From positions 6,519,001 through 6,583,000 of the forward strand of contig NZ_JAVDYC010000001.1 in assembly GCF_031458255.1 (NCBI RefSeq): a stretch of 64,000 nt of DNA, written 5' to 3'. How positions within the stretch are numbered: the stretch's first letter is position 1; every line of letters begins with the position of its first letter. The stretch comes from Catenuloplanes niger (GTDB lineage: Bacteria; Actinomycetota; Actinomycetes; Mycobacteriales; Micromonosporaceae). Under the pieces are notes generated by a model. It saw only the letters and a program-made list of their open reading frames with translations, searched no databases and was not told where the DNA came from. A program made the translations under genes and the position numbers. Of this stretch, positions 52,200-64,000 are shown piece by piece.

Positions 52200-52306
52200 G
52201 CCTACCGTCCTACCGGACGGGTACGACATTCTCGGCCCGAAAGGGTGGTTGCGGCGCCAAGATCGGGGTAGACAGGACGGAACCGAGCGACCGGGAGGTG
52301 AGTGCC

Positions 52307-55300
52307 GTGGGCGTGAAGACCTTCATCGAGGGCTGGCCCGTGTGGCGGCAGCTCACCGGCACCGACCCGCTCGGGCGCGGGCTCGCGGCGCAGTCCAGGC
52401 GCTCCAAGGAGCTCACCTCGCGCACCGAGACCGCGGACTCCGTGGCCAAGTCGGTCTGTCCCTACTGCGCGGTCGGCTGCGGCCAGCGCGTGTTCGTCAA
52501 GGACGGGCAGGTCACCCAGATCGAGGGCGACCCGGACAGCCCGATCTCCCGCGGCCGTCTCTGCCCGAAGGGCTCGGCCAGCAAGAGCCTGGTCACGAAC
52601 CCGGACCGGCAGCGCACCGTGCTCTACCGCCGGCCGTTCGGCACGGACTGGGAAGAGCTCGACCTGGACACGGCGATGGAGATGATCGCCGACCGGGTCG
52701 TCGCGGCGCGCGAGCAGACCTGGGAGGACCGGGACGCGGCCGGCCGGCCGCTGAACCGCACGCTCGGCATCGCGAGCCTGGGCGGCGCCACGCTGGACAA
52801 CGAAGAGAACTATCTGATCAAGAAGCTCTTCACCGCGATGGGCGCGATCCAGATCGAGAACCAGGCGCGTATTTGACACTCCGCCACCGTTCCCGGTCTG
52901 GGAACTTCCTTCGGCCGTGGCGGGGCCACCGGGTTCCAGCAGGACCTGGCGAACGCGGACTGCATCATCATCCAGGGCTCGAACATGGCCGAGGCACACC
53001 CGGTCGGGTTCCAGTGGGTGATGGAGGCGAAGAAGCGCGGCGCGACGATCATCCACGTCGACCCGCGGTTCACCCGGACCAGCGCGCTCGCGCACAAGCA
53101 CGTGCCGATCCGGGCCGGTGCGGACATCGCGTTCCTCGGCGGCGTCGTGCGCTACATCCTGGACAACGAGCTCGACTTCCGGGAGTACGTGCTGGCGTAC
53201 ACGAACGCGGCCACGATCGTCTCCGGCGACTTCCAGGACACCGAGGACCTGGACGGGCTCTTCTCCGGCTACGACCCGGAGCACAACGTCTACGACCAGA
53301 CCACCTGGGCGTACGAGGGACAGCGCGCGCAGGCCGACACCGAGGGGGAGGAGCACTCGGAGCGGGAGACCGCGTCCGGACTGCAGCAGGAGTCGCACGG
53401 CGAGCCGATCCCCGGCGGGACGCGCCGGGACGAGACGCTCCAGGACCCGCGGTGCGTCTACCAGATCCTCAAGCGGCACTTCGCGCGCTACACACCGGAG
53501 GTCGTCGAGAGCCTCACCGGCGTACCCCAGGCCGACTTCCTGCGGGTCTGCGAGGCCTGGACGCGGAACTCCGGCCGGGAGCGGACCACGGCGCTGGTCT
53601 ACTCGGTCGGCTGGACCCAGCACAGCGTGGGCGTGCAGTACATCCGGACCGGCGCGATCATCCAGCTGCTGCTCGGCAACATGGGCCGGCCCGGCGGCGG
53701 GATCATGGCGCTGCGCGGGCACGCCAGCATCCAGGGGTCGACCGACATCCCCACGCTGTTCAACCTGCTGCCCGGCTACCTGCCGATGCCGGTCGCGGGC
53801 CGGCACGACACGTTCGACGAGTGGATCGACGGCATCCGGCACCCGGGCCAGAAGGGCTTCTGGGCGAACGCGCGCTCCTACGCGGTCAACCTGCTCAAGG
53901 CGTACTGGGGCGACGCGGCCACGGCGGAGAACGACTACGGGTACGGCTGGATGCCCCGGCTGACCGGCGACCACGGCACCTACCAGCAGGTCCTGAACAT
54001 GATCGACGGGAAGGTCAAGGGCTACTTCCTGCTCGGGCAGAACCCGGCGGTCGGCTCCGCGCACGGCAAGGCGCAGCGGCTCGGCATGGCGAACCTGGAC
54101 TGGCTGGTCGTCCGCGACCTGTACCAGATCGAGAGCGCCACGTTCTGGAGGAACGGGCCGGAGGTCGAGACCGGGGAGATCACGCCGGAGACCTGCCGGA
54201 CCGAGGTGTTCTTCATGCCGGCCGCCAGCCACGTGGAGAAGGAGGGCACGTTCACCCAGACGCAGCGCCTCCTGCAGTGGCGCGAGAAGGCGGTCGACCC
54301 ACCGCAGGACTGCCGCTCGGAGCTGTGGTTCTTCTACCACCTGGGCCGCATGGTCCGGGAGCGGCTGGCCGGCTCGACGCTGCCCCGGGACCGTGCGGTG
54401 CTGGAGCTGGCGTGGGACTACCCGGTGCACGGCGAGGAGCGGGAACCCAGCGCGCTCGACGTGCTCAAGGAGATCAACGGGTACGAGGTGGCGAGCGGCC
54501 GCCCGCTGTCCTCGTTCACCGAGATGAAGGACGACGGCAGCACGCTGGGCGGCTGCTGGATCTACACCGGCGTGTTCCGGGACGGGGTGAACCAGGCCGC
54601 CCGCCGCAAGCCGCGGTCCGCACAGGACGAGGTGGCCGCGGAGTGGGGCTGGGCCTGGCCGGCGAACCGGCGCACGCTCTACAACCGGGCCTCCGCGGAC
54701 CCGGCCGGTGTGCCGTGGTCCCCCCGGAAGGCGTACGTCTGGTGGGACCCGGAGAAGGGCGAGTGGACCGGGAAGGACGTGCCGGACTTCGAGCGGACCA
54801 AGCCGCCGTCCTACCGGCCGCCGGCCGGCGCCACCGGGGTGGACGCGATCGCGGGCGACGACGCCTTCATCATGCAGGGCGACGGGAAGGGCTGGCTGTT
54901 CGTGCCGAGCGGGCTGATCGACGGCCCGATGCCGACGCACTACGAGCCGGCCGAGTCGCCGATCCGCAACCCGCTCTACCGGCAGCAGGGCAACCCGACC
55001 CGGAAGATCTACGTGCGCGCGGACAACGTGATCAACCCGAGTCCGCCGGAGGCGCACAGCGAGGTCTTCCCGTACATCTTCACGGTCAGCCGGCTCACCG
55101 AGCACCACACGGCCGGCGGGATGAGCCGCACGCTGCCGTACCTGGCGGAGCTGCAACCGGGCCTGTTCGTCGAGGTGTCGCCGACGCTGGCCGCCTCGCT
55201 CGGCCTGGCGCACATGGACTGGGCGCACCTGGTGACCGGGCGGTCCGCGGTGGAGGCACGGGTGTTCGTCACCGACCGGCTGCGGCCGCTGCGCGTCGAG

Positions 55301-55567
55301 GGACGGACCGTGCACCAGATCTGGCTGCCGTACCACTTCGGCGCGAACGGCGTGGTCACCGGCGACTCGACGAACGACCTGTTCGGCATCACGCTCGACC
55401 CGAACACGCTGATCCAGGAGAGCAAGATCGGCACGTGTGATCTGGTGCCGGGGCGGCGACCGACGGGTAAGGAATTGCTGGAGTACGTCGCCGACTACCG
55501 GCGCCGGGCCGGCCTGACCGATGACCACGTGACGCCGATCCAGACGACCGGGGATGACGATGGATAG
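52307..55567 (+). CDS. fdhA: selenocysteine-containing formate dehydrogenase alpha subunit
   Basis: 1086 residues, read through an in-frame TGA at 52874-52876 as selenocysteine 190. The context NQARI-U-HSATVPGLGTSFG is the classical active site of Mo/W-bis-MGD formate dehydrogenases, with Sec as the Mo ligand and His191 following. Upstream, CPYCAVGC (51, 54, 58) and LCPKG (86) bind a [4Fe-4S] cluster. Downstream are NADCIIIQGSNMAEAHP, GNMGRPGGGI, and the C-terminal MGD-binding domain (VSRLTEHHTAGGMSR ... TLDPNT). No Tat signal peptide is visible (a hydrophobic stretch is absent near the N-terminus). GTG 52307 is eight bases after GGGAGG; GTG 52298 and 52313 are alternatives. It oxidises formate to CO2 and passes electrons to FdhB. 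Confidence 0.95.
52874..52912 (+). promoter_or_regulatory. UGA-Sec codon with bacterial SECIS-like hairpin
   Basis: Twelve bases after the TGA, GTTCCC (52889-52894) and GGGAAC (52900-52905) form a 6-bp stem with apical loop GGTCT. Further pairing of the flanks is possible. E. coli fdhF has the same GGTCT in the loop of its SECIS at a comparable distance. The hairpin is also coding (residues 195-200), as bacterial SECIS elements must be. Confidence 0.85.
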
Positions 55568-56561
55568 CCTCTTGGGCCCCCAGGATGACAGCCTCTTGGG
55601 CCCCCGGGACGGCGGCCGCTCCGGCCGTATCGATGGTGGTGCTGCCGGTCCGGGGAGGAACAGTCTCTACGGTCCGCTGGATCCGGCGCCGGACGCCGGT
55701 TACGTCGACGCGCCGCCGCGGATGGGGTTCTTCACCGACACCAGCGTGTGCATCGGCTGCAAGGCGTGCGAGGTGGCCTGCAAGGAGTGGAACGGCGTGC
55801 CCGCGGACGGGTACGACCTGCTCGGCCAGTCCTTCGACAACACCGGCGGGCTGACCGCGAACTCGTGGCGGGCGGTGCACTTCATCGAGCAGCCGATGCC
55901 GGCCTCCGCTCCGGCCCCGGCCCCGGCTCCGGCCGCCGCGCCCGTCGCGCTGGGCATGCCGGGGCTCGGGCCGCCGGCCGGCACGGCACGGCCGGACTTC
56001 CGCTGGCTGATGATGTCCAACGTGTGCAAGCACTGCACGCACGCGGCCTGCCTGGACGTGTGCCCGACGGGCGCGCTGTTCCGCACCGAGTTCGGCACGG
56101 TCGTGGTGCAGGAGGACATCTGCAACGGCTGCGGCTACTGCATCCCGGCCTGCCCGTACGGCGTGGTCGACCAGCGCAAGGACGACGGCCGCGCGTGGAA
56201 GTGCACGCTCTGCTACGACCGGATCGGGGACGGGCTCACGCCCGCGTGCGCGCAGGCCTGCCCGACCGAGTCCATCCAGTACGGCGAGCTGTCCGAGCTG
56301 CGGCAGCGGGCCGCCGACCGGGTGGACGCGCTGCGGGCGGCGGGGGAGACCACCGCGCGGCTCTACGGGCACGACGAGAACGACGGTGTCGGCGGCGACG
56401 GCGCGTTCTTCCTGCTCCTCGACGAGCCGGAGGTGTACGGCCTGCCGCCGGACCCGGTCGTCACCACCCGCGACCTGCCTGCGATGTGGAAGCGCGCGGG
56501 CGTGGCCGCGCTGGCGATGGTGGGCGCGGCGATAGTGGCGTTCGCGGGGCGGTCCCGGTGA
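55554..56561 (+). CDS. fdhB: formate dehydrogenase iron-sulfur (beta) subunit
   Basis: 335 residues carrying sites for four [4Fe-4S] clusters: CIGCKACEVACKEW, CKHCTHAACLDVCPTG, CNGCGYCIPACPYG and CTLCYDRI ... ACAQACP. An Ala/Pro-rich linker (about 115-140) and a C-terminal membrane helix (GVAALAMVGAAIVAFAG) anchor it, as in FdhH/FdnH-like subunits. The N-terminus contains a tandem SLLGP(Q/R)D duplication with matching DNA. It overlaps the end of fdhA by 14 bases. It transfers electrons from the molybdenum site to the NrfD-like membrane subunit. Confidence 0.93.
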   Translation: MTMDSLLGPQDDSLLGPRDGGRSGRIDGGAAGPGRNSLYGPLDPAPDAGYVDAPPRMGFFTDTSVCIGCKACEVACKEWNGVPADGYDLLGQSFDNTGGLTANSWRAVHFIEQPMPASAPAPAPAPAAAPVALGMPGLGPPAGTARPDFRWLMMSNVCKHCTHAACLDVCPTGALFRTEFGTVVVQEDICNGCGYCIPACPYGVVDQRKDDGRAWKCTLCYDRIGDGLTPACAQACPTESIQYGELSELRQRAADRVDALRAAGETTARLYGHDENDGVGGDGAFFLLLDEPEVYGLPPDPVVTTRDLPAMWKRAGVAALAMVGAAIVAFAGRSR

Positions 56562-57865
56562 GCGCGGCTCCCGGCACGCCGGAGCGGGACGACGCGGCTC
56601 CGGGCACCGGCCAAGCCGCCGGTCCGGGCGCCGGTCAGCACGGTTCGAGCGTGGGTGCGGGCGGTTCGGGCGTGGGCAAGGCGGGGCAGGGCGTCGACCG
56701 GCGCGGTGAGCGGGACGTGGCCGGCCGGCCGGGACGCCGGGGTCGCTCGCGGTCCCGGGAAGAGATCATGGTGCCGGAGGCCGAGTTCCGGTCGTACTAC
56801 AACCGGCCGATCGTCAAGGCCGCGGTGTGGAAGCACGACATCGCCGCCTACCTGTTCACCGGCGGGCTAGCGGCCGGATCCGCGCTGCTCGGCGCGGGCG
56901 GGGACGTCACCGGGCGGCCCGCGCTGCGCCGCGCCGGACGCCTCGCCGCGCTCGGCGCCATCGGTGCCAGCACATACTTCCTGATCGCCGACCTCGGCCG
57001 CCCGGCCCGCTTCCACCACATGCTGCGGATCGCGCGGCCGACCTCGCCGATGTCGATGGGCACCTGGATCCTCTCCGCGTTCGGCGGCGCGGCCGGGGTC
57101 GCCGCCGCGGCCGAGCTCGCCCCGGCGCTGCTGCCGGAGCGGGGACCGCTCGGCCTGGTCCGGCGCGCGATGCCGGCCACCGGACGCGCGGCCGGGCTCG
57201 CCGCCGCGGCCGTCGCACCCGCGCTCGCCACCTACACCGCGGTGCTGCTCGCGGACACGGCCACGCCGTCCTGGCACGAGGCGTACCCGGAGCTGCCGTT
57301 CGTCTTCGGCGGCAGCGCACTGGCCAGCGGCGCCGCGGTCGGGCTGATCGCGGCGCCGGTGGAGCAGAACGGCCCGGCGGCCCGGCTCGCGGTCGCGGGC
57401 GCGGTCATCGAGCAGATCGCGGCGCACCGGGTCGAACACGGGATGGGGCTGCTCAGCGAGCCGTACCGGCAGGGCCGCGCCGGGACGCTGCTGACGGTGA
57501 GCCGGGCGCTGACCATCGCCGGTACGGTCGGCGCGGTGCTCGGGCGCCGCAGCCGGGTGGTGTCCGCGCTCTCCGGGGCCGCGCTGCTGGCGGCCTCGGC
57601 GGCCACCCGGTTCGGGATCTTCGACGGCGGCGTGGCCTCGGCGCGGGACCCGAAGTACACGGTGATCCCGCAGCGGGCCCGGCTCGCGGCCCGCTCCGGT
57701 GACGCCTCCGGCCCTGGTGAGGTTGCGGATCGTGGTGAGGTTGCGGATCCCGGTGGCGGTGCGGGTTCCGGTGGGACGCCAGCGTCCGGTGGCGTCGCGA
57801 TCACCGGCGGTGCGGTCCTCGGTGACCCCGGTAACGGTGCCGCCGACGACGACCCGCCGCGTTGA
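56558..57865 (+). CDS. NrfD/PsrC-type membrane quinone reductase subunit of formate dehydrogenase
   Basis: 435 residues. GTG overlaps the FdhB stop (GTGA). The first 70 residues are Gly/Ser/Arg-rich and unusual. Then follow MVPEAEFRSYYNRPIVKAAVWKHDIAAYLFTGGLAAGS and about eight to nine membrane helices, including FLIADLGRPARFHHMLRIARPTSPMSMGTW, which is the NrfD signature. It passes electrons to menaquinone in place of cytochrome b. The C-terminal 60 residues are Gly/Asp-rich and probably cytoplasmic. FdhA-FdhB-NrfD is a common actinobacterial arrangement. Confidence 0.9.
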   Translation: MSAAPGTPERDDAAPGTGQAAGPGAGQHGSSVGAGGSGVGKAGQGVDRRGERDVAGRPGRRGRSRSREEIMVPEAEFRSYYNRPIVKAAVWKHDIAAYLFTGGLAAGSALLGAGGDVTGRPALRRAGRLAALGAIGASTYFLIADLGRPARFHHMLRIARPTSPMSMGTWILSAFGGAAGVAAAAELAPALLPERGPLGLVRRAMPATGRAAGLAAAAVAPALATYTAVLLADTATPSWHEAYPELPFVFGGSALASGAAVGLIAAPVEQNGPAARLAVAGAVIEQIAAHRVEHGMGLLSEPYRQGRAGTLLTVSRALTIAGTVGAVLGRRSRVVSALSGAALLAASAATRFGIFDGGVASARDPKYTVIPQRARLAARSGDASGPGEVADRGEVADPGGGAGSGGTPASGGVAITGGAVLGDPGNGAADDDPPR

Positions 57866-59801: not shown

Positions 59802-60797
59802 TCAGCGGACGATCAGCGTGCGTCCGTGCTGGTCAGCCGCGCGCAGCTCGCCGATCACCGGGTGTCCCGGGACCTCGCCCGCGATCAGCAGACCGCCGGA
59901 CGTCTGCGCGTCCGCGAGCAGCAGCAGCTCGTCCTCGGGTACGCCGTCCGCGTCCAGGTGCGGCCGGACCCAGTCCAGGTTGCGCCGGGTGCCGCCGCTG
60001 ACGAACCCGTCCGCGAGCGCGGCCCGCGCACCGTCCAGGTAGGGCACCGCAGACGCGTCCACGAACGCGGTCACACCACTGGCCCGGGCGAGTTTGTGCA
60101 GATGCCCGAGGAGCCCGAAGCCGGTCACGTCGGTGGCCGCGACCGCGCCCGCCGCCACCGCCGCCTCGGCCGCGTCCCGGTTCAGCATGGTCATCGCGGC
60201 CACCGCGTGCGGGAACGCCTCGCCGGTCGCCTTGTGCCGGCTGTTCAGCACGCCGACGCCGAGCGGCTTGGTCAGCGTCAGCGGCACGCCGGGCCGCCCC
60301 GCGTCGTTGCGCAGCAGCCGGTCCGGGTCGACCAGGCCGGTCACGGCCATGCCGTACTTCGGCTCCGGGTCGTCGACGCTGTGCCCGCCCGCGACCGGGC
60401 AGCCGGCCGACCGGGCCACGTCCAGGCCGCCGCGCAGCACCTCCGCGGCCAGCTCCATCGGCAGCAGGTCACGCGGCCAGGCCAGCAGGTTGATCGCGAC
60501 GATCGGCGTGCCGCCCATGGCGTACACGTCGGACAGCGCGTTCGCGGCCGCGATCCGCCCCCAGTCGTACGCGTCGTCCACCACCGGCGTGAAGAAGTCC
60601 GCCGTGGACACCACCGCGCGATCCGCCCCGATCCGGACCACCGCCGCGTCGTCCCCGTCGTCCAGCCCCACGATCAGCTCACGCTCCGCGTCGTGCGGGG
60701 CGCCGCGCAGGCCCGCGACCACCGCTTCCACCTCACCCGGGGGAATCTTGCAGGCACAGCCACCGCCGTGCGCATAACCCGTCAGACGTACCGTCAT
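59802..60797 (-). CDS. selD: selenophosphate synthetase SelD
   Basis: 331 residues. The N-terminal active-site loop is GYAHGGGCACKIPP, with the catalytic Cys and Lys. Further signatures are STADFFTPVVDDAYDWGRIAAANALSDVYAMGG, VAGGHSVDDPEPKYG, ATDVTGFGLLGH and DAQTSGGLL. It makes selenophosphate from selenide and ATP, the selenium donor for tRNA-Sec charging by SelA. It uses Cys, not Sec, so it is not itself a selenoprotein. It is divergent from tRNA-Sec, 38 bases away. Confidence 0.97.
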   Translation of the reverse strand: MTVRLTGYAHGGGCACKIPPGEVEAVVAGLRGAPHDAERELIVGLDDGDDAAVVRIGADRAVVSTADFFTPVVDDAYDWGRIAAANALSDVYAMGGTPIVAINLLAWPRDLLPMELAAEVLRGGLDVARSAGCPVAGGHSVDDPEPKYGMAVTGLVDPDRLLRNDAGRPGVPLTLTKPLGVGVLNSRHKATGEAFPHAVAAMTMLNRDAAEAAVAAGAVAATDVTGFGLLGHLHKLARASGVTAFVDASAVPYLDGARAALADGFVSGGTRRNLDWVRPHLDADGVPEDELLLLADAQTSGGLLIAGEVPGHPVIGELRAADQHGRTLIVR

Positions 60798-60835: not shown

Positions 60836-60931
60836 GAAGGCGATCGAGTGGCTGGTGCCCTCCCCGATCTTCAAAATCGGTGTGACCGAGTCTCTCGGTC
60901 AGGCGGGTTCGATTCCCGTCCGCCTTCGCCA
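60836..60931 (+). tRNA. selC: tRNA-Sec (anticodon UCA)
   Basis: 96 bases including an encoded CCA. Acceptor strands are GAAGGCG (60836-60842) and CGCCTTC (60921-60927), with discriminator G60928. The anticodon stem CCGAT/ATCGG flanks the loop CTTCAAA, with anticodon TCA at 60871-60873. The long variable arm GACCGAG...TCGGTC and T arm CGGGTTCGATTCCCG are clear. The extra-long variable arm and length are diagnostic of tRNA-Sec. It decodes the UGA in fdhA with SelB. Confidence 0.96.
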
Positions 60932-60954: not shown

Positions 60955-61431
60955 TCAGCTGCGGACGCTGAAGACGTGCGGTCCGGTTTCGCCGGCTCGC
61001 ACCAGGCCGAGCGTGACGGCCGGCAGGCCCAACCGCACCGTCATCGTCTGCACGGCTTCGCGTACGAACGGAATCACCGAGATCACGGCGGTCTTCTCGA
61101 TGAATCGCTGCACGAGTTCGCCGCTCAACTCCGCGCCCGCGAGCGCCTCGGTGAAAGCGAAGGTCTGGACCAGCGTGAGCCCGAGGCGCGCCACGTCGAC
61201 GTCGCCGGTGGATCGCAGGACGGAGTCGAAGGACCACCGTAGCTGCATGGAGTCGTCATCTCGGCGGAAGTCGACATCGAGAACAGGGTCGAAGTCCCGG
61301 ATCGCGCTCGAGGCGTAGTCGAGTAGTTCGCTGTGCCATCGCACCACCCGAATGTCGATCAGCTCGACTCCCTGGATGACGGTCCAGAGGTCGGAGTCGG
61401 TCTCCACCGGGCGGCTCGTCGTCTCCGTCAT
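60955..61431 (-). CDS. SecB-like chaperone-domain protein
   Basis: 158 residues. The C-terminal segment VISVIPFVREAVQTMTVRLGLPAVTLGLVR aligns with the SecB pattern F-P-x-x-R-E-x-I-x-x-x-x-x-R-x-G-x-P-x-x-x-L-x-P-V, and the preceding beta-strand pattern fits. Its ATG overlaps the stop of the HTH gene (ATGA), so they are co-translated. SecB-like proteins beside HTH regulators act as the chaperone of toxin-antitoxin-chaperone (TAC) systems in mycobacteria. That assignment is inferred. Codon use is less GC-biased than in neighbouring genes. Confidence 0.6.
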   Translation of the reverse strand: MTETTSRPVETDSDLWTVIQGVELIDIRVVRWHSELLDYASSAIRDFDPVLDVDFRRDDDSMQLRWSFDSVLRSTGDVDVARLGLTLVQTFAFTEALAGAELSGELVQRFIEKTAVISVIPFVREAVQTMTVRLGLPAVTLGLVRAGETGPHVFSVRS

Positions 61432-62093
61432 GTCGCATCGCTCGCATTCACGGATCTGCGCTCATGCCACGCCATGGCGTCTCGGTACTCCGCTCGTACG
61501 CCGCTGATGTGGCCGTCGATCTCCGGGCCGGAGGTGCCGGGGCTGCGTTCGAGCATCCTCATGGGGACGTGCGCGCCTCTCGTAGCCCGTTGCCATTCAC
61601 GGTCGATCGGACCGATCACCCGGTGCAGAGACGCGTTGATCTCGGCGACCTGCGCGGCGGACAAGCTTTCCTCGTCGTCGTGCAGGTGGTATTGGCGGAG
61701 CCAATCGTTCACGACGGACCATGGCCACAGCCGCATCGAGCCACGCTCGCCGCCGCCGGCCGACCCGATCGGCGGCGGAAAGTCGCCGGGGCCGCGCCGC
61801 CCGTCGACCCACAGGCGAACGGCTTCTCTGGTGACCCCGACGCGCTTGGCGATATCGGACACGCCCACCACGTCCTGGTCCACCTCTGCCACGCGTGCGC
61901 CCGGAAGGCACGTAGCGATTTGTCGGGCGGCCTGCGAAGCGGCACCCACGGGATTGCCATTGGCGTGAATGATCGCCACGGTACGGCCGTCGACCTCGAT
62001 CCAGGTCAGATGGTTCAGGTGTGCGCTGATCACATCGAACACATCATCATCGTCAAGATCTACGCCAGTGACACGCAGGGCGATCCGGTGCAA
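61428..62093 (-). CDS. HTH (MerR/AlpA-like) DNA-binding regulator, possible antitoxin
   Basis: 221 residues from a TTG at 62093, chosen because GGGAGG sits six bases upstream. A longer ATG start at 62147 would have no ribosome site and would lie inside the palindromic operator. The HTH is VGVSDIAKRVGVTREAVRLWVDG (about residues 76-98), followed by a typical AlpA-like end (DFPPPIG ... RLWPWSVVNDWLRQY). The N-terminal 70 residues (LHRIALRVTGVDLDDDDVFDVIS) form a small alpha/beta domain also seen in phage-like and toxin-antitoxin regulators. The C-terminus is helical and charged. Probable autorepressor of the three-gene module. Confidence 0.65.
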   Translation of the reverse strand: MHRIALRVTGVDLDDDDVFDVISAHLNHLTWIEVDGRTVAIIHANGNPVGAASQAARQIATCLPGARVAEVDQDVVGVSDIAKRVGVTREAVRLWVDGRRGPGDFPPPIGSAGGGERGSMRLWPWSVVNDWLRQYHLHDDEESLSAAQVAEINASLHRVIGPIDREWQRATRGAHVPMRMLERSPGTSGPEIDGHISGVRAEYRDAMAWHERRSVNASDAT

Positions 62094-62133
62094 GGGTGTC
62101 CTCCCGGGTGCGTGGTCGTCTCGCGATGCTATA

Positions 62134-62154
62134 GCCAACGTTGGCATCTGCCAA
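62134..62154. promoter_or_regulatory. palindromic operator overlapping a putative promoter of the HTH gene
   Basis: GCCAACGTTGGC (62134-62145) is a perfect 12-bp palindrome, and TTGGCATCTGCCAA (62141-62154) adds a second inverted repeat sharing a half site. On the minus strand TTGGCA and TATAGC could be -35 and -10 (15-base spacer). Placement just upstream of the HTH gene suggests autoregulation. Confidence 0.6.
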
Positions 62155-62158
62155 CACG

Positions 62159-62884
62159 TTACGGCGTTCCGTGTCCGAGCCGCAGCCGGACATCGGCAAT
62201 ACGCGTTCGGGTATCGGAGAGTCGTTCCCGGAGTGTGCCGACGATGGGGTCTTCGTGGTCGATCGCCTCCGCGACGAGACTGGTCGCCTCGTCGGTCCGC
62301 TGCTCCGCTCCGGCTACGTACGTGTGCGGTGCGCCGTCCGGAATGCCGCTCTCCGCCCCTCGAATCCAGCCTTTCTCCGTCAGGTGCCGGGCTTCGTCGT
62401 CGAATTCCTGCGCGGTGGCCATCACCCGCGCGACCTCGTCGGCGTTCCCGGCGGCTGTGTCCAGCAGCTCTTGGGCGCGCTGCCAGGCATCGCCCGCGAT
62501 GCTCCGAGCCTCCTCGGCGTCCAGGAAATACTCCGCGGCGTCAAGAAGCCTGTCCGCGCCCGACAGGAGGTTGTCCGCGTAGGAAAGATCGACCGTGAGG
62601 TCGGCGAAGTGGTGCGGGCAGTCGCGGATCGCCCGAACGAGATCCTTCGCTCGTGCCTCGGGATTTCTCGGTGTGGTGTCAATTATGATCTTGCAAACCG
62701 CACCGCCTCGCTCTACGCGACGGCAGAACGCACGTCCGTAGCCGTGGCCGGCGGTCTCGCGCAGATGCCATCCGGCCAGCCGGGCATCTTTGAGCGCCTG
62801 CTTCATGGCCGGATGGAGGTCTCCGTCTCTGGGCCACCTGTCTTTCGGGCCGTGCCAGAGGTTGTCTCCGCCTCGTGGCGCCAC
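62159..62884 (-). CDS. hypothetical protein with HicA-like N-terminal segment
   Basis: 241 residues from a GTG at 62884 (start uncertain; an ATG at MKQALKD is possible). The segment LKDARLAGWHLRETAGHGYGRAFCRR ... CKIIIDTTPRNPEA with AKDLVRAIRDCPH resembles small HicA-like RNA-binding toxins (Gly-Trp, GH-x-x-x-R, C-x-I). The remaining 150 residues are Ala/Glu/Asp-rich and helical, with several Arg and Glu clusters and no known motif. It ends 66 bases before the HTH gene start, with the operator in between. It may be the toxin partner of the HTH/SecB-like pair, but that is inference. Confidence 0.5.
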   Translation of the reverse strand: MAPRGGDNLWHGPKDRWPRDGDLHPAMKQALKDARLAGWHLRETAGHGYGRAFCRRVERGGAVCKIIIDTTPRNPEARAKDLVRAIRDCPHHFADLTVDLSYADNLLSGADRLLDAAEYFLDAEEARSIAGDAWQRAQELLDTAAGNADEVARVMATAQEFDDEARHLTEKGWIRGAESGIPDGAPHTYVAGAEQRTDEATSLVAEAIDHEDPIVGTLRERLSDTRTRIADVRLRLGHGTP

Positions 62885-63206: not shown

Positions 63207-64000
63207 TCAGGACGCGATGACGCGGCTGTTGTCCGGCAGCCGGTGGGTGATGCCGGTGCGGTCGAGCAGTTCCAGCAGCGGGACCGCGACGCGGCGGCTG
63301 CACCCGAGGGTCTGGCGGGCCGCGCTCACGGTGAACGGGCTCGCCACCGTCGTCAGGCGGCGGCGGGCCTCGTCGAGTGCGTCCGGCAGCAGGAAGACGT
63401 TGTCGGCGACGCGGAGCAGCAGGCCGGCGCGGACCGCGGCGGCGGCCTCGCGCCGGCCGAGGCCGATCTCGGCCAGCCGGGCGGCCTCGGGGGCGGCGAA
63501 CGGGGCGTCGCGCAGGTCGTCGCGGATGGCGGCGACCATGCGGGCCAGCGCGGGCGGGACGCCGGAGTCGCCGGTGTGCACGCGGCCGTCGCGGTAGGAC
63601 AGTGGCGGCGTGACCAGGGCCTCGACCAGCGCGATGTCGGGCAGGCCGAGGCGGTGGCGGAGCGCCTCGGCGGGGGCGCCGGGCTCCAGCGGGTGATCCT
63701 TCGCGTACGCGGTGGCCGCGTCGACCAGCCCGGCGCGCAGCGCGGACCAGTGCGCGGGGTCGGCCAGCCAGTCGCCGGCGACCGGCGGGACCGTGACCGG
63801 GACCCCGGTCCGCCGCAGGTCACCGCGCCGGATCAGGCCGCGGCGGCGCAGCTCGTCGTGCTCGTCCGGGACGCCGGTCATGGTGGCCAGCACGGCGGCG
63901 CGGGCGGCGGCGGCACCCCGGCGGCCGAGCGCGGGCGGGGCGACGTCGAGCACGGTGGCGCCGCCCAGCACGCGCGGGCCGGAACGGCCGGGGTCGCGCA
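63207..64000 (-). CDS. selB: selenocysteine-specific elongation factor SelB, C-terminal part (cut by window edge)
   Basis: About 264 residues are visible, ending at 63207. The first residues (RDPGRSGPRVLGGATVLDVAPPAL) match domain 3 of SelB. The rest is a string of winged-helix domains (VPDEHDELRRRGLIRRGDL, EALRHRLGLPDIALVEALV, REAAAAVRAGLLLRVADNVFLLPD and FTVSAARQTLGCSRRVAVPLLELLDRTGITHRLPDNSRV). These C-terminal domains bind the SECIS hairpin; the GTPase part lies outside the window. selA is probably upstream of it. Same pathway as selD, tRNA-Sec and fdhA. Confidence 0.92.
   Translation of the reverse strand, partial: RDPGRSGPRVLGGATVLDVAPPALGRRGAAAARAAVLATMTGVPDEHDELRRRGLIRRGDLRRTGVPVTVPPVAGDWLADPAHWSALRAGLVDAATAYAKDHPLEPGAPAEALRHRLGLPDIALVEALVTPPLSYRDGRVHTGDSGVPPALARMVAAIRDDLRDAPFAAPEAARLAEIGLGRREAAAAVRAGLLLRVADNVFLLPDALDEARRRLTTVASPFTVSAARQTLGCSRRVAVPLLELLDRTGITHRLPDNSRVIAS

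Follow-up and report, generated by a model that had tools for sequence, protein, structure and literature searches.

Results

The fdhA gene and its neighbours

The window, i.e. the whole 64,000-nucleotide stretch of Catenuloplanes niger DNA that was analysed, carries on its forward strand a reading frame (52307-55567) whose sole interruption is an in-frame TGA at 52874-52876. The frame is opened by a GTG at 52307, 189 codons precede the TGA, and downstream it is open from 52877 to a TAG ending at 55567, as expected from the original prediction of one frame broken solely by a TGA without any frameshift. The second open reading frame that had been placed at 52985-55567 does lie in the same frame, but 52985 is merely the first ATG, GTG or TTG past the TGA. 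A likely ribosome binding site, GGGAGG (52293-52298, forward strand), ends eight bases upstream of the GTG at 52307, which appears to be the better start because the alternative in-frame GTG at 52298 overlaps this motif. Since the window holds other long open frames too, the open frame alone is little proof.

The joined product of fdhA, the alpha subunit of formate dehydrogenase, has 1086 residues, with selenocysteine (Sec) predicted at position 190. It matched the family model NF041513 (formate_DH_Act) with 1936.2 bits against a cut-off of 1400, over positions 2-1067 of 1067, and TIGR01553 with 934 bits (cut-off 814). The Fe4S4, molybdopterin and dinucleotide-binding domains (PF04879, PF00384 and PF01568) all scored above their cut-offs, and a single gene in the whole genome exceeded the NF041513 cut-off. 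Eleven of the 13 best sequences in a PDB search were labelled as selenocysteine-containing formate dehydrogenases, the top relatives there being E. coli FdnG (1kqf) and enzymes of the same function from further bacteria. The joined protein aligns through the Sec of 1kqf, over query residues 47-337 and 370-1026, and the iron-sulfur cysteines are in place as judged by eye. The stretch NQARI-U-HSAT, earlier recognised as a known Sec site, indeed has its Sec and the following His (U190-H191) at the same positions as NQARV-X-HGPT of FdnG. A difference from FdnG is that the FdhA N-terminus, also judged by eye, has no clear twin-arginine signal. The gene at 52307-55567 is an ordinary member of the known actinobacterial Sec formate dehydrogenase family, a kind already published.

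The end of fdhA is overlapped by the start of fdhB (55554-56561, forward strand), the iron-sulfur subunit gene, with 4Fe-4S domains over the Pfam cut-offs and a score of 171.6 bits against the formate dehydrogenase beta model TIGR01582, which is under the cut-off of 334.7. Further downstream, fdhC (56768-57865, forward strand, with a predicted start) encodes an NrfD-like membrane subunit (PF03916, 69.1 bits, cut-off 25.8), whereas the membrane subunit in E. coli, FdnI, is a cytochrome b.

Genes for Sec synthesis and insertion are close by. The selenophosphate synthetase gene selD (59802-60797, reverse strand; TIGR00476, 389.6 bits, cut-off 125) encodes the motif GGCACK with Cys and not Sec, this Cys occupying the position held by Sec in Sec-type SelD. 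A tRNA search located tRNA-Sec (selC) with anticodon TCA at 60836-60931 on the forward strand. The C-terminal part of selB, with winged-helix domains, is found at 63207-63998 on the reverse strand (PF09107 over cut-off; a weak match to positions 512-573 of 581 in TIGR00475), and the gene runs off the window; in E. coli SelB the winged-helix domains bind the SECIS element. The earlier statement that selD, tRNA-Sec and selB are all present in the window is thus right for the former two, but for selB it applies to the C-terminal part only. A whole-genome search showed that the GTPase part spans the window end and that selA then follows, placing tRNA-Sec, selD, selB and selA all within about 11 kb of the fdhA end. 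All of selA, selB, selC and selD are present in the genome, with each family match over its cut-off. Three likely genes on the reverse strand between tRNA-Sec and selB (60955-61431, 61428-62147 and 62159-62884) gave no Pfam match and may have been inserted into the sel cluster.

Conservation of the stop codon and its link to tRNA-Sec

A scan of genome contigs confirmed at least 587 relatives, and the best 80 loci were kept, with a few species giving two loci. All 80 of these best loci had TGA at the aligned site. The peptides used in the scan do not span the Sec site, and the scan therefore does not exclude Cys forms. Named relatives at 77-79% identity were mostly Micromonospora, together with Actinoplanes, Paractinoplanes, Plantactinospora, Dactylosporangium and others, which makes a place within the Micromonosporaceae likely.

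A sample of 394 genomes of the class was also searched, and 109 of these genomes matched with an E-value of 1e-100 or lower, 107 of them over the cut-off. The site could be read in 111 genes from 108 genomes (the remaining matching genome, G074, is outside the count) and was TGA in 88, TAG in one and Cys in 22. At a threshold of 60 bits, set after a gap between 64.2 and 55.2 had been seen in the scores, tRNA-Sec was found in 101 of the 394 genomes: in 84 of 88 stop-bearing genomes versus 2 of 20 with Cys genes only and 15 of 286 others. Hits below the threshold probably represent tRNAs of other kinds; ARAGORN classified one hit, of 51.5 bits, as tRNA-Ser. Two genomes (G131 and G323) carry both stop-bearing and Cys genes.

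In the other four stop-bearing genomes, G022, G058, G222 and G370, no tRNA-Sec reached 60 bits, even with laxer filters. All four are drafts; selB was over the cut-off in G022 and G058 and not in G222 and G370. G222 is rated 100% complete and has TGA at the site (L202), and since its gene sits 2.2 kb from a contig end, a gap in the assembly likely accounts for the missing sel genes. The G370 gene (L151), from a 63% complete draft, combines TGA at the Sec site with an additional in-frame stop, a TAG, in another part of the match. In another genome, G283, the gene has Cys at the Sec site, yet there is an in-frame TGA elsewhere in the match (L112/L209).

In a FastTree tree of 139 genes (two of 141 were left out by a length limit of 700 residues that we set ourselves) stop and Cys are separated by a single change. 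The contrast between them hence amounts to one evolutionary event, and an independent-pairs test yielded one pair only and was uninformative.

The SECIS hairpin

A predicted SECIS hairpin of six pairs, GTTCCC-GGTCT-GGGAAC with the loop GGUCU at 52895-52899, is located at 52889-52905 on the forward strand, i.e. 13 to 29 bases after the TGA, bearing out the GGTCT-loop hairpin originally described close behind it. The 18 bases between UGA and loop fit the range of 16-37 bases given for bacterial SECIS loops (PMC10778597). The combined pattern of TGA plus hairpin, written after the hairpin had been seen, had its sole match on both strands of the window here. In the class sample, all 89 stop genes had the hairpin core and none of the 22 Cys genes did, with a pattern that was chosen after seeing the stop genes.

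Among 103 distinct stop-bearing stretches, pairs 1-6 were standard in 103, 99, 101, 103, 103 and 103, compared with 19, 21, 8, 2, 22 and 10 of 22 Cys stretches. Both bases of the third pair are at synonymous positions, one being the third base of a Val codon and the other that of a Gly codon, and the pair is formed in 101 of 103 stretches by different base combinations (C-G 45, U-A 27, G-U 13, U-G 9 and G-C 7). The maximum in 10,000 shuffles of this pair was 72 of 103, albeit shuffling takes no account of relatedness. The same two bases had the highest mutual information among the 73 bases compared (0.834, with 0.45 for the next). The loop was GGUCU in 85, AGUCU in 12 and AGUUU in 6 of the 103 stop stretches, and GGUCU also occurred in 3 of the 22 Cys stretches. 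Of all blocks of 12 columns in the gene, the one at codons +1 to +13 shows the lowest synonymous variation.

Folding of 52874-52920 had been suggested as a check. The minimum-energy fold of these 47 bases does contain the hairpin, for the window gene and in 79 of 81 genes (the window gene and 80 named loci), but the energy is no better than that of shuffled sequences (z -0.52; 59 of 200 shuffles as good). When 57 bases were folded, the hairpin appeared in 33 of the 81 genes and was lost in the fold of the window gene. Folding energy was consequently rejected as evidence for a SECIS element, given the z-score and the dependence of the fold on the length supplied. An Rfam search gave no SECIS hit at the gathering score.

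Relatives with TAG

A genome of the class sample with TAG at the site, G390, has a tRNA with anticodon CTA that was called tRNA-Pyl by ARAGORN, but scores 64.2 bits against the tRNA-Sec model. In view of this tRNA and the TAG gene, we infer that G390 belongs to the Geodermatophilaceae. In the family of G390, 66 of 76 genomes gave 77 matches, and 76 of the matches, from 9 of 12 genera, show one in-frame TAG; the remaining match is partial and has two TGA. The site was read in 31 of the 77 (one of them also in the class sample), and the codon before TAG was ATA in 31 of 31. The hairpin core was found in 30 of these 31 sites, and in the other (L235) the pair adjacent to the loop is turned from C-G to G-C, so that the stem is kept.

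A tRNA-Sec with anticodon CUA has been described in three Geodermatophilaceae genomes by PMC5330540, which cites an earlier report. The family of G390 would appear to decode UAG as Sec in the manner found in those three genomes. The G390 relatives share the gene family and the hairpin core with the window gene and differ in combining TAG with a CTA anticodon (G390), as against TGA with TCA in the window.

The codon directly before the stop

The Sec codon is preceded by an Ile codon, ATT (52871-52873, forward strand), and every stop-bearing relative that was read has A or U as the third base at this position. In the first set, comprising the window gene and the 80 named loci, the codon was ATT in 78, ATA in 3 and ATC in none, although ATC makes up 95% of the Ile codons in these 81 genes and ATT and ATA are rare. 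By our own measure, this was the most unusual codon choice among 557 conserved columns of the 81 genes.

The class sample, which overlaps with the first set at least by the window gene, had ATT in 58, ATA in 28 (one of them before TAG) and GTT in 3 of its 89 stop genes. In contrast, the 22 Cys genes had GTC (11) or GTG (11), so that the third base was C or G in 22 of 22. Taking the stop genes from whole genomes together, the base was A or U in 119 of 119 (106 distinct stretches) and never C or G. It changed at least 20 times among stop genes on the 139-gene tree, always between U and A, whereas C is the gene-wide third-base preference in these genes.

Other formate dehydrogenases of the phylum were compared by means of TIGR01591. 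Among at least 87 stop-bearing genes listed, 69 were taken and 68 used; L274 was left out as its TAG is far from the site. The codons before TGA were TTG (25), TTA (25), ACT (5), CTT (4), GTT (4), ACC (3) and GCC (2). In the 45 of these 68 genes with GC3 above 0.75, A or U occurred in 29, compared with 6.8 expected from their own GC3. A strict A/U rule for all formate dehydrogenases was rejected, as E. coli fdnG has GTC before its UGA, in contrast to ATT here, and ACC or GCC was found in 5 of the 68 TIGR01591 genes.

Discussion

The locus at 52307-55567 is almost certainly a single gene, encoding the catalytic subunit of a membrane-linked formate dehydrogenase, and its UGA 52874 would be read as Sec. 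Read-through, as the original prediction had proposed, is supported by the family score, the alignment with FdnG, the linked sel genes, and the conserved stop with its covarying hairpin. The hairpin at 52889-52905 would recruit SelB with Sec-tRNA-Sec at the UGA, and Sec would be inserted as residue 190, where it is predicted to bind molybdenum or tungsten and to take part in formate oxidation. Electrons would then pass from FdhA to FdhB and on to the NrfD-like FdhC. That Sec is inserted in this organism is proposed here from sequence, as are the metal, the electron acceptor and the direction of the reaction. With less certainty, we suggest that the recoding signal also extends upstream and includes an A or U immediately ahead of the stop.

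A Cys clade does exist in the same family (22 of 111 genes in the class sample), and the TGA could in principle reflect a recent nonsense mutation in such a Cys gene or a mistake in sequencing. There is next to no likelihood of this, since the TGA recurs in all 80 of the best of at least 587 relatives, the hairpin core is absent from the Cys genes, whose codon before the site also differs, and the frame is maintained on both sides of the TGA; the joint conservation of TGA and hairpin rules out that the codon is really one for Cys, the error that the original prediction had itself raised. The in-frame ATG at 52985 could likewise let translation end at the TGA and restart there to give two proteins, which we regard as exceedingly improbable: the intervening 52877-52984 encodes the Sec-adjacent residues that align with FdnG, these residues are highly conserved in the 81 genes, and both codons and hairpin are constrained in this region.

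Returning to the single Sec-containing protein, we lean towards the view, though only slightly, that the Sec signal of the fdhA family extends upstream, such that the base before the stop must be A or U. Such a base may make the release factor less effective or delay the ribosome ahead of the stop. It is also quite conceivable, if not what we favour, that the rule works via codon rarity, which would slow the step preceding the stop, and not via the base itself. ATT and ATA are rare in the fdhA family genes, TTA or TTG precedes TGA in 50 of the 68 other formate dehydrogenase genes of the phylum, and the 45 genes with GC3 above 0.75 use a codon whose share of its synonymous set averages 0.106; against this, ACC or GCC stands before TGA in 5 of the 68, and base and codon rarity are not separable with the present data. 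The lower stem of the E. coli SECIS begins near the UGA, and a similar reach of the hairpin here could let the upstream base pair with a downstream one. Such pairing is improbable, as mutual information with any of the 55 bases past the TGA was at most 0.097 in 88 TGA genes; the sole clear partner of the base was the third base of the preceding codon (0.325). Descriptions of the Sec signal place it downstream of UGA (PMC10778597, PMC13188914). An upstream A/U rule may be a new detail: the available portions of PMC12013277, PMC13188914, PMC4513850 and PMC1242214 held no mention of it, which is a weak test covering few subscription journals, and neither did literature listings, again a weak test.

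Related systems are known in other actinobacteria. One is that of Actinomycetospora chiangmaiensis DSM 45062. Its membrane-bound Sec formate dehydrogenase FDH1, with an FdhA1 of 1078 residues, resembles the present system in having selA and selB in the same cluster; formate removal is selenium-dependent in this organism, and the subunits were detected by proteomics (PMC7176365). It has three Sec formate dehydrogenases (PMC7176365), compared by description, versus one NF041513 gene over the cut-off here. For Streptomyces incarnatus, a genome announcement reports a selenocysteine formate dehydrogenase-O, a SECIS element and a selABCD cluster (PMC4498112). The likeness, as far as it can be drawn from this description, lies in an actinobacterial in-frame UGA directly followed by a SECIS, with selABCD nearby, and no difference of kind was seen (PMC4498112).

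The original prediction also held that annotation pipelines would call such a locus two broken genes. As a general statement this goes too far, since E. coli fdnG is a single CDS in RefSeq and NCBIfam models the formate_DH_Act group. It does find some backing in PMC7176365, where the accession of two membrane-bound Sec FdhA is given as 'n.a.', and annotation errors of this sort are frequent according to a 2026 review (PMC13188914).

No selenoprotein family is more widely distributed in bacteria than formate dehydrogenase (PMC13188914), with FdhA present in 67 of 75 Sec-using organisms (PMC1794560), and fdhA of the window would be one more case of this family. The TAG-using relatives offer a natural comparison of two stop codons. 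The upstream base rule, if true, would add a simple and testable element to the signal for selenocysteine in bacteria, and could aid gene finders in GC-rich genomes as well as the design of selenoprotein expression.
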